Assembly: GCF_900168025.1 (NCBI RefSeq)
Contig: NZ_FUYN01000002.1
Location: 274,343 to 338,342 of the forward strand
Source: Acetoanaerobium noterae
GTDB lineage: Bacteria; Bacillota; Clostridia; Peptostreptococcales; Filifactoraceae
DNA: 64,000 nt
Reading direction: 5' to 3'
Shown one piece after another: positions 34,347-41,116 of the stretch. Position 1 is the first letter of the stretch. Each line of letters opens with the position of its first letter. Below the pieces are notes generated by a model. The model worked only from the letters and a program-made list of their open reading frames with translations, searched no databases and was not told the DNA's origin. Position numbers and translations under genes: made by a program.

Positions 34347-35000
34347 ATGAAAAATGATGCTCTAAAGACGACTATACTGAGCATGAAAGTTATATCAAAT
34401 GTAGATGAATCAATGGTAAGAGAATTCACTCTTCCTCAGGGGCATAAAAGTATAGGTATGTTTACAGCTGACTGCGACGATGTGTCTTATACTGCTTTGG
34501 ATGAAGCTACTAAAAAAGCTGATGTAAAGGTAGTGTATGCAAAATCATTCTATGGAGGGGCTGCAAATGCCAACACTAAGCTAGCTGGTGAAGTAATAGG
34601 AATAATTTCAGGTCCTAACCCAGCTGAAGTAAAAAGCGGACTTAATGCCATAGTGGATTTTATAGAAAGTGGAGTATCCTTCACAAGTGCAAATGACGAT
34701 GATTCCATAGCTTATTATGCTTATTGCATATCAAGAACAGGAAGCTATCTTTCTGAAGTGGCAGGGATACAAGAAGGCGAAGCAATAGCTTACCTTATTG
34801 CACCACCACTTGAGGCTATGTACGCTCTTGATGCAGCGCTAAAGGCTGCAGATGTAAGAATGGCTGCCTTTTATGGACCGCCATCTGAAACTAACTTTGG
34901 AGGAGGACTGTTAACTGGAAGCCAATCTGCTTGTAAAGCTGCTTGTGATGCTTTTGCAGAGGCTGTGAAGTTTGTAGCTGAGAATCCTACAAAGTTCTAA
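34347..35000 (+). CDS. eutL: Trimeric tandem-BMC shell protein EutL (217 aa)
   Basis: Two circularly permuted BMC domains in tandem, with EutL blocks SVDVDMVREF-like (here NVDESMVREFTLPQGHKSIGMFTADCDD), AKSFYGGAANANTKLAGEVIGIISGPNPAEVKSGL and PPSETNFGGGLLTGSQSACKAACDAF. EutL trimers have a gated central pore, thought to pass larger cofactors. Normal length. Confidence 0.96.
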   Translation: MKNDALKTTILSMKVISNVDESMVREFTLPQGHKSIGMFTADCDDVSYTALDEATKKADVKVVYAKSFYGGAANANTKLAGEVIGIISGPNPAEVKSGLNAIVDFIESGVSFTSANDDDSIAYYAYCISRTGSYLSEVAGIQEGEAIAYLIAPPLEAMYALDAALKAADVRMAAFYGPPSETNFGGGLLTGSQSACKAACDAFAEAVKFVAENPTKF

Positions 35001-35025: not shown

Positions 35026-35607
35026 ATGAAAAATAAAGCCTTAGGACTGATAGAAACCTATGGATATATAGGAGCCATAGAAGCTGCGGATACAGCAGTA
35101 AAAGCAGCCTATGTAGAGCTGAGCGCAGTTGAAAAGGTCAAAGGAGGCCTAGTGACTGTTCAGCTTCTAGGAGATGTAGGTGCGGTAAAGGCTGCAGTTG
35201 ATGCAGGAGTCCAAAAGTGCAAGGCTCTGGGAGTCTATGTATCTTCTCATGTAATAGCTCGACCAGACAGTGAGCTTTACAAAATAGTTCCTAAGCTGAA
35301 CTCTGAGGAAACTGACAAGCCAAAAGAGATAATAGCTTTTGAGGATGAAAATGCCAAAGAAGATGAAAAAATCGAAAAAGCCGATAAGATTGAAAAAGAT
35401 GAGAAGGCTGACAAGCTTGAAACTTCAGAACCAGAATTTAAGCTTCCTAAGCATTTTTACACAATGAAGGTGGTACTGCTTAGAAACTATGTTAGAAAGC
35501 TGGATAATTTTCCAATACCTAATAAAAAAATCAAATTTGCTAATAAGCAACAGCTGATTGACGGATTGATAGAATATTATAAAACCAAACCTATGACAAA
35601 AGAATAG
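35026..35607 (+). CDS. EutK-like shell protein: BMC domain with C-terminal extra domain (193 aa)
   Basis: Residues 1-88 are a canonical BMC domain ([50 protein letters not shown]). Residues ~105-140 are a charged linker made of repeated Glu/Lys/Asp/Ala words (EKADK, EKDEK). Residues ~143-193 form a small basic helical domain with MKVVLLRNYVRKL, FPIPNKKIKFANKQQLIDGLIEYY. The plan resembles EutK of enterics, whose C-terminal domain is a nucleic-acid-binding-like winged helix, but this tail looks different. Named EutK-like by architecture only. Confidence 0.8.
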   Translation: MKNKALGLIETYGYIGAIEAADTAVKAAYVELSAVEKVKGGLVTVQLLGDVGAVKAAVDAGVQKCKALGVYVSSHVIARPDSELYKIVPKLNSEETDKPKEIIAFEDENAKEDEKIEKADKIEKDEKADKLETSEPEFKLPKHFYTMKVVLLRNYVRKLDNFPIPNKKIKFANKQQLIDGLIEYYKTKPMTKE

Positions 35608-37153: not shown

Positions 37154-37447
37154 ATGGCAAACGCTAACGCATTAGGAATGATAGAAACTAAAGGTCTTAT
37201 TGGAGCAATAGAGGCAGCAGATGCAATGGTAAAAGCAGCTAACGTTACCTTGGTAGGAAAAGAGCTTGTTGGTGGAGGACTAGTTACAGTTATGGTAAGA
37301 GGAGATGTAGGAGCTGTAAAGGCAGCTACAGATGCAGGAGCAGCAGCGGCTGATAGAGTAGGAGAGCTACTATCAGTACACGTAATACCAAGACCACATA
37401 TGGAAGTAGAGTCTATCCTTCCTCAGACTAAACCTCAAGCTGAATAG
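37154..37447 (+). CDS. eutM: Major hexameric shell protein EutM (97 aa)
   Basis: Classical single BMC domain: [57 protein letters not shown] and SVHVIPRPH. It tiles the facets of the shell; strong GAGGAGG and codon use fit high expression. Similar to the N-terminal half of the EutK-like gene upstream, which may derive from it. Confidence 0.97.
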
Positions 37448-37484: not shown

Positions 37485-38249
37485 ATGGCAGTAATTACAG
37501 AATCTGCCTTAAGGACTCAGTTAAAAAGTAAAACTGCTACGGTCTATGCCGTAAATAAAGGTGATAAACTCACTCCCTCAGCTTCAGAATATCTCAAAAC
37601 CAAAGGAATAGAATTAATCTACTCCGATGATGAAAGAGCAGTGAATGATAAAGTAGCCTCTAAAGGGGATGAACCTCCTGTAAAAAGTGCAGATGAAAAT
37701 AAAATATCCAAAAAATATGTCTGTTATTATACAGGGGCTTGGTTTTCTGAAAAACCAGAATTTATGACTCAAATTGAAGGAAATAAACTGGTATACAAAG
37801 ATCACCAAAGAATCGCTTTTAGAGGTAAGCTGGATTCAACTGAAGCTCAGGCGCTCTATACACTTAGCCTTATAGATGATTCAAAAAAGCAGATTAAGGC
37901 AGGTCTAAAGGAAATATATCTGCATCTTAGAAAAATGATGCGTGCAGAGGTTTTAGGAGAGCATTTAGAAGAATTCTCTATGCTCTCAATGGATCAGGCT
38001 CAGCTAAGGGAGCTATCTCATAATCCTAAGAAATATTTTGGAAATGGCCATTTTATTTTAACAGGAGAAGAGGATAAGGATGTACTGCTTTTAAATATTC
38101 TAAGAACTAGGCTAAGAGAGCTTGAGATAGAGGGACTAAGAGCGTTTAGAAAAGAAAATACTGTAGATAGAAAAGATATAATGATGAATCTCAATAGACT
38201 TAGCAGTGCTGTGTATGTATTAATGCTAAAAGCAACCTATGAGAAATGA
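37485..38249 (+). CDS. eutT: Ethanolamine cobalamin adenosyltransferase EutT (254 aa)
   Basis: Makes adenosylcobalamin for EutBC. Residues 1-48 are the N-terminal 'LTP' module (VITESALRTQL...KLTPSASEYLKTKGIELI). Residues ~75-254 are the helical adenosyltransferase domain with SEKPEFMTQIEGNKLVYKDHQRIAFRGKLDS. The cysteine cluster CCxxC found in enteric EutT before this block is missing; only one Cys (YVCYYTGAW) is there. EutT proteins lacking the cluster are known in Listeria and other Firmicutes. GGAGGTG precedes the ATG. Confidence 0.93.
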   Translation: MAVITESALRTQLKSKTATVYAVNKGDKLTPSASEYLKTKGIELIYSDDERAVNDKVASKGDEPPVKSADENKISKKYVCYYTGAWFSEKPEFMTQIEGNKLVYKDHQRIAFRGKLDSTEAQALYTLSLIDDSKKQIKAGLKEIYLHLRKMMRAEVLGEHLEEFSMLSMDQAQLRELSHNPKKYFGNGHFILTGEEDKDVLLLNILRTRLRELEIEGLRAFRKENTVDRKDIMMNLNRLSSAVYVLMLKATYEK

Positions 38250-38266
38250 AAGCAAGGTGATAAGCG

Positions 38267-39169
38267 ATGAATGAAGAAATGATGAAGGAGCTCATATTAA
38301 AAATTATGAAAGAGCTCGATTTTAATAAAGATTCTTCTATTCTTGAAGCATCACCTGATGAAAAGGTCCAAACTGGAGCTTTTGATGATTCGTTTCAAGT
38401 AGAAGTCTCAGCAAGGCATATCCACCTTAGTAAAGAGCATCTTGAGGCACTTTTCAAGGATCAGGAAATAGGAATAAAAAAGGAGCTTTCTCAGCCAGGA
38501 CAGTATCAGGCGGATATTAGAGTAACTCTAATAGGACCAAAGGGAGTGCTTCAAAATATAGCAGTTCTTGGTCCATCTAGAAATAATACTCAAATAGAGC
38601 TATCTCTTACAGATGCTAGAGTTCTTGGGATTAATCCTCCTGTTCGTGATTCTGGAGATACAAAGGGAAGTGCAGGAGTTATAATCAGTGCTAACGGCAG
38701 AGCTATTGAGCTTACTGAAGGAGTTATAATTGCTAAGAGGCATATTCATATGACTCCTAAAGATGCAGTCTTAAGAGGAGTGAAGGACAAGGATTTAGTA
38801 AAGGTAAGAGTTGAAGGAGATAGACCTCTGATATTTGATGATGTACTGGTGAGAGTCAGTGATAAATACAGCCTTGCTATGCATATAGATTTTGATGAGG
38901 CAAATGCTGTTGGCCATAGACCAGATAGCAGAGGAAGAATAGTGTTTGATTCTGAAAGAATCAAGCTGGAAAATAAGCCTCTAGTTAAAGAGGAAACTAG
39001 CAGTGAGCTTAAAGAGTGCTTTATAGAAAAAAAGCTTATATCTGAGGAAATGATTAAGGAGCTAGTAAAATCAGAGCCTAAGATAGTCAATATTCCTAAA
39101 GCTAGCATATTGACTCCTCTAGCTGCAGATTTTATTAAAGAAAAAAGGATAGAGCTAAAAAGAGTGTAA
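38267..39169 (+). CDS. pduL: PduL-type phosphotransacylase with extra C-terminal LTP module (300 aa)
   Basis: Converts acetyl-CoA and phosphate to acetyl-phosphate, recycling CoA inside the compartment; it takes the place of EutD. Residues 1-19 (MNEEMMKELILKIMKEL) look like an encapsulation helix. The PduL core has two zinc-site repeats: VEVSARHIHLSKEHLEALF and GVIIAKRHIHMTPKDA, plus GPSRNNTQIELSLTDARVLG and HIDFDEANAV. Residues ~253-300 are an added segment, LISEEMIKELVKS...ASILTPLAADFIKEKRIEL, that matches the EutT N-terminus. Typical PduL is ~210-230 residues. Confidence 0.94.
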   Translation: MNEEMMKELILKIMKELDFNKDSSILEASPDEKVQTGAFDDSFQVEVSARHIHLSKEHLEALFKDQEIGIKKELSQPGQYQADIRVTLIGPKGVLQNIAVLGPSRNNTQIELSLTDARVLGINPPVRDSGDTKGSAGVIISANGRAIELTEGVIIAKRHIHMTPKDAVLRGVKDKDLVKVRVEGDRPLIFDDVLVRVSDKYSLAMHIDFDEANAVGHRPDSRGRIVFDSERIKLENKPLVKEETSSELKECFIEKKLISEEMIKELVKSEPKIVNIPKASILTPLAADFIKEKRIELKRV

Positions 39170-39204
39170 TCAAGTCTCCTAAGGCACTGCAAAGGAGTGA
39201 TGAA

Positions 39205-39474
39205 ATGAAAAAAATACTCATTACTAAGAAAAATATAAATGAGTACCTAGATGCAAAGACCTGTAGCCTAGTGATGGGGCCAGATATGATACTGACTCCT
39301 GGAGCAAAGGATGAGGTCAGAGAAAGAAATTACGCTATAGTCTATAAAGAGATTTCTGAATCTTCAGACGAAATATCTTTAGAGGACAGAATAAAATGTA
39401 TACTAAAAAATGACTATAACGTGGAAGATGAAGCATTACTAAAGCTACTGGTTAAAAAAATTGGAGCAAAATAA
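39205..39474 (+). CDS. Stand-alone LTP-module protein, unknown function (89 aa)
   Basis: Residues 1-50 (KKILITKKNINEYLDAKTC...MILTPGAKDEVRERNYAIVY) match the EutT N-terminus and the PduL C-terminus. Residues ~52-89 are an acidic linker and a short helix (DEALLKLLVKKIG) that resembles encapsulation helices. No catalytic residues are apparent. It lies between pduL and eutH; Clostridioides eut operons have a small unknown gene at about this place. A role in docking or cargo ordering is a guess. Confidence 0.75.
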   Translation: MKKILITKKNINEYLDAKTCSLVMGPDMILTPGAKDEVRERNYAIVYKEISESSDEISLEDRIKCILKNDYNVEDEALLKLLVKKIGAK

Positions 39475-40666: not shown

Positions 40667-41116
40667 ATGAATCTAGATGAAAAGGTACTAGAGTCTTTAG
40701 TTAGAAAGGTAGTAGGAGAGCTTATGGCAGCCAAAATGCCAGAGTTTGAAAAGGATATTGATCCTAAGACAGGGATAATGTCTATTAAAGCAGAAAAAGT
40801 AGTATGTGAGAAATTTGATACAGGCCATATTAATGACAAGGTTTATTTAAAGGATGTACTAAGCCTTGATGAAAGCCCAAGACTAGGCTGTGGCATGATG
40901 GAAATGGATCACTCTGCTTTTGAATGGACGCTTAAATACGATGAAATAGATTATGTGATAGATGGGGTTCTTGAAATCAGGTTAAAGGATAAAACCATAA
41001 GAGGGGAAAAGGGAGATATTATATTTATTCCAAAGGATTCAGAGATAGTATTTGCTACTCCTTCCACTGTTAGATTTATGTATGTAACCTATCCGGCAAA
41101 TTGGAGTGAGCAGTAA
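40667..41116 (+). CDS. eutQ: EutQ cupin protein (149 aa)
   Basis: N-terminal helix MNLDEKVLESLVRKVVGEL (residues 1-19) looks like an encapsulation peptide. The rest is a cupin beta-barrel: GCGMMEMDHSAFEWTLKYDEIDYVIDGVLEIRLKDKTIRGEKGDIIFIPKDSEI. EutQ has been linked to acetate-kinase activity and to compartment assembly. The protein lacks the longer N-terminal half of enteric EutQ (~230 aa). GGAGGG precedes the ATG. A ~100-base gap follows. Confidence 0.9.
   Translation: MNLDEKVLESLVRKVVGELMAAKMPEFEKDIDPKTGIMSIKAEKVVCEKFDTGHINDKVYLKDVLSLDESPRLGCGMMEMDHSAFEWTLKYDEIDYVIDGVLEIRLKDKTIRGEKGDIIFIPKDSEIVFATPSTVRFMYVTYPANWSEQ

Follow-up and report, generated by a model that had tools for sequence, protein, structure and literature searches.

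Among the closest described counterparts of the element considered here, a module of about 45 residues found in three adjoining genes of an ethanolamine (eut) bacterial microcompartment (BMC) locus of Acetoanaerobium noterae, was the N-terminal region (helices H1/H2) of EutQ from Salmonella and E. coli. In a 2025 report on Salmonella (PMC12487888), EutQ residues 1-99 sufficed to target sfGFP to the compartment; in deletion and colocalisation experiments, removal of residues 9-41 separated shell and cargo and left the truncated EutQ with the cargo, and removal of residues 62-99 left EutQ with the shell. The same report assigned binding of the EutC and EutE encapsulation peptides to EutQ helices H3/H4 by nuclear magnetic resonance (NMR) and isothermal titration calorimetry, described an NMR effect of an EutC peptide on EutQ residues 63-99 with none in residues 2-62 (H1/H2), and presented a model in which EutQ links to the EutM/EutL interface of the shell; CcmN, CsoS2, and PduB residues 1-37, treated there as well, could be likened to the module by their job only, namely shell-cargo joining. 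Pull-downs in PMC4827028 indicated that EutM binding in vitro needed the first 100 residues of EutQ, that N-terminally tagged EutQ failed to bind EutM, and that mutation of EutM at K53, D57, and Q64 abolished EutQ binding. PduM was said to have no known homologues outside Pdu (PMC12108088), to possess an N-terminal core-targeting signal, and to aid core-shell joining (PMC12108088, PMC9132943).

The stretch analysed was 64,000 nucleotides of contig NZ_FUYN01000002.1 (assembly GCF_900168025.1, positions 274,343 to 338,342 of the forward strand; hereafter the window). Judged by sequence, the module in the window and the EutQ region that ties EutQ to the EutM/EutL shell in Salmonella were the same domain, but the arrangement differed: (i) the published work treated the region as a part of EutQ, whereas its carriers in the window were EutT, PduL, and a protein of 89 aa (p89); (ii) the EutQ cupin stood in a separate gene for a short, cupin-only EutQ (40667-41116, forward strand; PF06249 at E 1.4e-48 from residue 4), in which the module hidden Markov model (HMM) detected no N-terminal module; and (iii) the position of H3/H4 was held by the catalytic domains in EutT and PduL and by a linker plus two helices without detectable homology to H3/H4 in p89.

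Three homologous segments in adjoining genes

The three genes, taken from the list of open reading frames (ORFs), all lay on the forward strand: EutT (cobalamin adenosyltransferase) at 37485-38249, PduL/EutD (phosphotransacylase, 300 aa) at 38267-39169, and p89 at 39205-39474. Their module copies were EutT residues 1-46 (37485-37622; iterated module HMM over residues 1-45, E 1.6e-13), PduL residues 255-298 (39029-39160; HMM over residues 255-297, E 1.2e-14), and p89 residues 3-47 (39211-39345; HMM over residues 3-46, E 8.1e-13), and all three segments were seed rows of this HMM. The proposal of the first-pass annotation that the three proteins share a module of about 45 residues was borne out by shuffle tests and by matches to the NCBIfam model TIGR02536, and the EutT N-terminus, the PduL C-terminus, and the p89 segment are homologous copies of one module. 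Local alignment of 48-residue segments scored 59 for EutT-PduL (reached by 0 of 20,000 shuffles), 44 for PduL-p89 (2 of 20,000), and 41 for EutT-p89 (20 of 20,000); BLASTP aligned EutT with PduL as whole proteins at E 5e-4 and EutT residues 1-55 with p89 at E 0.007, and gave no alignment between PduL and p89. Applied to the whole 2.8-Mb genome at E<=1, TIGR02536, the model of a curated family of eut proteins with no assigned function, produced three matches only, which were the three segments (PduL, 4.3e-9; p89, 0.0057; EutT, 0.055), each met by the C-terminal end of the model; since this loose cut-off also gave matches in 5 of 14 control genomes, the weight rested on the value of 4.3e-9 and on the location of all three matches in adjoining genes. 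Against the window PduL alone, the model matched at E 4.2e-9 over its positions 155-205 of 207 and stayed below its curated whole-protein cut-off (36.3 vs. 152.6 bits), the C-terminal part alone matching; the PduL copy scored highest (52.6 bits) with the subgroup profile built on the C-termini of TIGR02536-type, flavoprotein-like proteins (FLAV-C).

Pfam gave no domain at the three segments: the PTAC match in PduL ended at residue 216 of 300, the Cob_adeno_trans match in EutT began at residue 94, and the sole trace in p89 was a sub-threshold SSXRD match at residues 39-56. The sequence motif initially drawn up for the module proved approximate, as the residue after A-x, acidic in all three proteins, was E in EutT (SASE) and D in the other two, and KxKxIxL fitted EutT and PduL but not p89 (RNYAIVY). 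The accompanying statement that PduL of usual size lacks the module held: two NCBIfam PduL models ended at residues 225-226 of 300, and PduL was without a C-terminal module in 103 of the 110 de-duplicated loci holding a PTAC protein. The PSBD/E3-binding domain (PF02817), considered as a parent on account of LTPxA, was rejected; 1 of 10 relatives scanned gave a single sub-threshold match (12.5 bits vs. a cut-off of 23.7), and the window proteins gave none.

AlphaFold2 was applied to two of the three segments. The p89 model (mean predicted local distance difference test [pLDDT] 84.3, predicted template modelling score [pTM] 0.46) displayed strands 4-6, 21-24, and 28-30, helix 32-40, and strand 44-47, followed by a low-confidence linker 51-56 and helices 59-70 and 76-88; the PduL-tail model, made from its own alignment (mean pLDDT 87.7, pTM 0.61), displayed strand 5-6, helix 8-17, strands 21-24 and 29-30, helix 32-41, and strand 44-47. 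The elements occurred in the same order and places, with the first helix just three residues long in p89, and the two models agreed on a predicted beta-alpha-beta-beta-alpha-beta topology; the expectation of one fold behind all three segments thereby found agreement for p89 and the PduL tail, the two that were folded. For neither model did Foldseek return a match at E<=0.001 (lowest E-values, 1.6 and 0.56), VIA-align 2 on the Foldseek list reached Z <=4.3 to unrelated proteins, and a sequence search of solved structures gave no convincing match (best E 0.016, from scattered pieces).

The module family and its carriers

A profile was built from five seeds, namely the three window segments and the N-terminal parts of EutT and EutQ from E. 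coli (residues 2-45 in EutQ), and at the threshold of E<=0.01 it had matches in 44 of the 98 related genomes. Hand counting yielded 64 clusters of matches, of which 60 were taken and four (G025, G038, G055, and G077) left out, and locus L101 (G033) lost its match on profile iteration. In 62 loci with 4,605 ORFs, the iterated HMM identified 108 proteins with the module (the window, the E. coli locus, and the five seed rows counted), and 20 further loci from a phylum-wide search enlarged the set to 140 module proteins. These were sorted into eight carrier classes: (i) FLAV-C (52); (ii) N-terminus of EutT-type adenosyltransferase (31); (iii) stand-alone (26, including four fusions to ACT domains that were sorted here); (iv) N-terminus of proteins without listed domains (12, including two further ACT fusions and one aldehyde dehydrogenase); (v) N-terminus of long EutQ (9, the E. 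coli EutQ seed included); (vi) C-terminus of PduL (6); (vii) C-terminus of other short proteins (3); and (viii) N-terminus of PduL (1, L115). The aldehyde dehydrogenase (L109:8115-9944) had an EutQ-type module as its N-terminus.

Since the TIGR02536 family model itself carries the module, the module spans more than the three proteins in which it was initially noticed. TIGR02536, which was independent of the seed, also matched a long EutQ at its N-terminal end (L078, E 4.2e-6); HHalign comparison of the four subgroups (EutT-N, FLAV-C, stand-alone, and EutQ-N) gave probabilities of 98.1-99.5% for every pair, those of EutQ-N with the other three being 98.1-99.4%. By these sequence comparisons, long EutQ has at its N-terminus the same domain that TIGR02536 proteins have at their C-terminus. 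In TIGR02536 proteins, the last approximately 50 residues were the module, C-terminal as in the window PduL; they differed in having a flavoprotein-like body (PF02441 above cut-off in 1 of 6 C-type representatives, L093, and just under it in L044), and the window locus contained no such protein but had the C-terminal form on PduL instead. A 38-row alignment of the module had a single column (A33) reaching 90% conservation, and the recurrent polar positions were the early IT, the T of T-P, and the acidic residue after A-x.

The C. difficile genome contained, at E<=0.01, two copies only, one on EutT and one (assigned by position) on a 241-aa TIGR02536-type protein (L201), which by length and gene order is probably CD1921; CD1921 was tabulated as 'unknown function' in PMC3483176. 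Long-EutQ loci also contained a 221-227-aa protein with an EutT-type module (L046:7928-8599, L052:7987-8652, L056:8033-8713, L069:10517-11182, L073:8035-8712, L078:11243-11926, and L087:11369-12052), and the one scanned (L046) had trace adenosyltransferase similarity (E 0.02); these proteins are perhaps degenerate EutT retained for the module.

The C-terminus of PduM may belong to the same family. In two PduM sequences, from records of Klebsiella and E. coli, residues 121-159 matched the FLAV-C profile at 18.1 and 19.4 bits; PduM scored 14 bits against the general module profile, with 2,000 shuffles of its tail reaching <=5.3, and <=5.9 bits against the stand-alone and EutQ subgroup profiles. 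The C-terminal ends of the PduM models (PF15953, TIGR04493, and NF011957) matched module stretches in 4 of 10 relatives scanned; the matches, in L085, L093, L050, and L099, had E-values of 5.8e-5 to 0.12, all under curated cut-offs. The concurrence of several models suggests, less strongly than for the carriers above, that the PduM C-terminus carries a divergent module copy; no window protein was PduM. PduM would then resemble TIGR02536-type carriers in its C-terminus (about residues 121-159), together with its role in core-shell joining, and would differ in its divergence (18-19 bits) and, as published, in its mainly cargo-associated location.

Probable shell docking and the alternatives

With a fair degree of probability, the three segments represent a single mobile domain, some 45 residues long, by which each carrier is docked to the shell, probably at EutM/EutL. 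This reading follows from homology to the EutQ N-terminus, which in Salmonella joins cargo to shell, and on that analogy we infer shell docking by the EutT, PduL, and p89 copies. The candidate partners in the window were EutM (37154-37447, forward strand; 71% identity with its E. coli counterpart in an alignment of 86 residues), which kept K53 and D57 of the EutQ-binding residues, as K56 and D60 in its own numbering, and had D in place of Q64 in the alignment, and a second shell protein at 34347-35000 (forward strand), presumably EutL as named from sequence and gene order, whose ORF contained two PF00936 matches (G000:C2:308791-309006 and 309157-309312).

A shell-docking module joined to a cargo-side element would form a bridge. 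In EutT, its own copy would hold the enzyme at the shell. PduL would combine an encapsulation-peptide-like N-terminus with the C-terminal module, taking the bridging place of the TIGR02536 proteins found in most relatives, and its cargo side would be the N-terminal helix and the enzyme itself. The helix in question, a possible encapsulation peptide, covered PduL residues 1-22 (38267-38332, forward strand; hydrophobic moment 0.54, with p 0.087 vs. shuffles being suggestive only), and its position and pattern fit those of encapsulation peptides; N-termini amphipathic above shuffles were also found in 34 of 124 FLAV-C proteins, and an N-terminal encapsulation peptide is plausible in some of them. 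p89 would be a minimal linker on the plan of the EutQ N-terminus (module, flexible linker, and two helices), which is missing from short EutQ, and, provided that its two helices (residues 59-88; 39379-39468, forward strand; AlphaFold model) bind peptides, it would be the smallest bridge. The hydrophobic moments of these two helices were not above shuffles (p 0.26 and 0.58). In other carriers, the cargo side is, as published, H3/H4 of Salmonella long EutQ and the N-terminal signal of PduM.

A literal splitting-off of p89 from the EutQ N-terminus was rejected: its tail had no detectable homology to E. coli EutQ H3/H4, comparison of the tail profiles of the p89 type and long EutQ gave a probability of 4.5%, and only the notion of a common plan was therefore kept for p89. 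An apparently stand-alone EutQ N-terminal region was observed in the Desulfobacterales locus L186, where 96 aa were followed by a stop and then by a shell gene.

The distribution of carriers was compared across loci, to which 80 named loci were added via an EutT search; these were the best 80 of 542 ranked by full-length EutT similarity, so the presence of the module on EutT in 80 of the 80 is a biased figure. With eight duplicates dropped, 154 of 162 loci were kept for the complementarity tests. Another C-terminal carrier was present in 0 of 7 loci with a PduL-C module (window included) vs. 89 of 103 plain-PduL loci (p 3.7e-6); the 14 plain-PduL loci without one comprised seven with long EutQ, one with the aldehyde dehydrogenase fusion, and six with neither. 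A stand-alone module protein occurred in 1 of 13 long-EutQ loci vs. 33 of 69 short-only EutQ loci (p 0.012), the latter leaving 36 of 69 without, and a C-terminal carrier occurred in 65 of 69 short-only EutQ loci vs. 3 of 13 long-EutQ loci. The closest subgroup was FLAV-C for 7 of 7 PduL-C copies, EutT-N for the PduL-N copy, and EutQ-N for the aldehyde dehydrogenase copy, these scores being not strictly comparable because the subgroup profiles were built on 115, 99, 49, and 13 sequences. The subgroup best matches and the replacement counts are as expected if the domain moved from a lost or neighbouring carrier, and they give strong hints, not proof, that C-terminal-form carriers replace one another between loci.

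The module was also strongly tied to BMCs. A shell gene lay <=5 kb from 134 of 140 module proteins (median distance 68.5 bp); among the 98 relatives, the module was found in 43 of 54 BMC genomes vs. 1 of 44 others (p 5e-16), and among 398 genomes of the phylum sample, drawn at random from Bacillota-side genomes only, in 82 of 107 vs. 11 of 291 (p 1e-49). It was found in a Pdu-type locus with diol dehydratase (L117) as well. Two further loci had a TIGR02536-type module protein and shell genes beside other enzymes, namely adenine deaminase and allantoinase in L048, and adenine deaminase and a xanthine-dehydrogenase-like protein (below model cut-offs) in L072, and by gene content both are probable purine-degrading microcompartments.

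Several results weigh against shell docking as the module's role. No copy was detected in 11 of 54 BMC relatives and 25 of 107 BMC genomes of the phylum sample, and in six BMC-less genomes (no PF00936) the module formed the N-terminus of a 152-156-aa ACT-domain protein (L103:3491-3949, L104:8274-8744, L105:8976-9443, L106:9073-9537, L107:5237-5707, and L108:8700-9170), the ACT domain being identified by Pfam in L103 and L104 and by likeness in the other four. The carriers were read in 6 of the 11 BMC-negative genomes with the module (G212, G295, G323, G413, and G434 left out), and the occurrence in 11 of 291 such genomes, including the six ACT fusions, refutes BMC exclusivity. Six of the 103 plain-PduL loci had no C-type carrier, long EutQ, or aldehyde dehydrogenase fusion, three of them holding a short module ORF and three just EutT, with some on short contigs. 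The counts are themselves skewed, as the loci from the relatives and the phylum search were picked for holding the module, and the complementarity and BMC counts ignore common descent. The p89-tail HMM scored 1.1 bits on E. coli EutQ (H3/H4), with shuffles reaching up to 13.9. In Salmonella with the PduB N-terminus removed, PduM remained with the cargo and not with the shell (PMC9132943), which counts against its C-terminal module as a strong stand-alone shell anchor. The docking or scaffold role, as opposed to a catalytic one, put forward in the first-pass annotation is in part backed by homology to the EutQ N-terminus and by enrichment in BMC genomes, but the module is neither confined to BMCs nor limited to the three proteins.

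That PduM, with its divergent copy, follows the cargo in this experiment would be accommodated by a generic interaction module that binds cargo, core scaffold, or itself and gathers EutT, PduL, and the linkers into the enzyme core, and so would the module's presence on ACT-domain proteins where the genome has no shell genes. This explanation is nevertheless unlikely, for in the published data EutQ lacking residues 9-41 kept the cargo and lost the shell, H1/H2 had no EutC-peptide contact by NMR (PMC12487888), and EutM binding needed the first 100 EutQ residues (PMC4827028).

A small ligand-sensing or regulatory domain, e.g., a metabolite reader tuning the attached enzyme, is very unlikely. It would explain why the module is fused N-terminally to ACT domains, as a rule metabolite sensors, and the few recurrent polar positions are compatible with a polar site; the carriers, however, were enzymes with differing ligands and short proteins without any other domain, the single column at 90% in 38 rows is unusual for a binding site, and the EutQ region acts in assembly (PMC12487888).

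An unusual encapsulation peptide of the short amphipathic-helix type is highly improbable. The module shares with encapsulation peptides, which are terminal extensions of cargo enzymes active in encapsulation, its terminal position on such enzymes, but encapsulation peptides are helices of approximately 18 residues, and the module is predicted to have a mixed alpha/beta fold of approximately 45 residues (p89 and the PduL tail); moreover, the first 22 residues were amphipathic above shuffles in 3 of 113 EutT-type vs. 61 of 118 PTAC proteins (ORF-rule starts, duplicates kept), and PduL had its encapsulation-peptide-like helix at the end opposite to the module. A resemblance by chance, or by convergence towards a common beta-alpha-beta pattern, to which the shortness of the motif and the one of three pairs without a BLASTP alignment might point, is ruled out for practical purposes by the shuffle tests, the matches to an independent curated model (TIGR02536), and profile-profile probabilities of >=98%.

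Shell docking by the module could be extended into a wider reading, the chances of which we put at about even: Eut, Pdu, and purine/allantoin-type metabolosomes would share an interchangeable docking module with at least one bridging carrier each, the absence of the EutQ linker in Gram-positives would reflect relocation, PduM and EutQ would share an unrecognised domain, and evolution would shift the module among EutQ, TIGR02536 proteins, PduM, PduL (either end), EutT, aldehyde dehydrogenase, and stand-alone proteins.

The window locus and what the module may mean

The gene set of the window comprised EutS, EutP, EutV, EutW, EutA, EutB, EutC, EutL, an EutM-like protein with a C-terminal extension, EutE, EutM, EutT, PduL/EutD, p89, EutH, short EutQ, EutJ, EutN, an RnfC-like protein, and a two-domain shell protein, which make up an ethanolamine (eut) microcompartment locus; beyond the six proteins scanned with Pfam/NCBIfam and the placed shell domains, the gene names are presumptive and come from sequence and gene order. 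EutH was the sole gene between p89 and short EutQ, in a gap of 1,193 bp, and a gap of 1.1-1.5 kb separated p89-type proteins from short EutQ in 18 of 33 loci holding both. The EutM-like shell protein (35026-35607) had a partly charged C-terminal extension of about 110 residues beyond its BMC domain. A second cluster, with four BMC-domain matches, lay outside the window on contig C3 (287315-288506) of the same genome, and that contig remained without a module match at E<=0.01.

For Enterococcus and Listeria, EutQ was reported to be without the first three helices, and Gram-positive assembly was inferred to be different (PMC12487888, 2025). The loci surveyed here included neither genus; in the window, where the short EutQ was likewise without the module, three other proteins from the same locus carried it, and the published inference may therefore need revision. 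No description of the module across EutT, EutQ, PduM, PduL, and TIGR02536 was found in the open literature, subscription papers and preprints being outside that scope; the shell-cargo-linker class and EutQ as a carrier are already known, and the shared mobile domain and the replacement pattern appear to be new.

For most metabolosomes, the way in which cargo is fastened to the shell has yet to be explained, and a recognisable module makes the statements on Gram-positive assembly and on the lack of PduM homologues directly testable. The module also suggests a function for proteins of unknown function, probably including CD1921, and a folded tag for loading engineered compartments.

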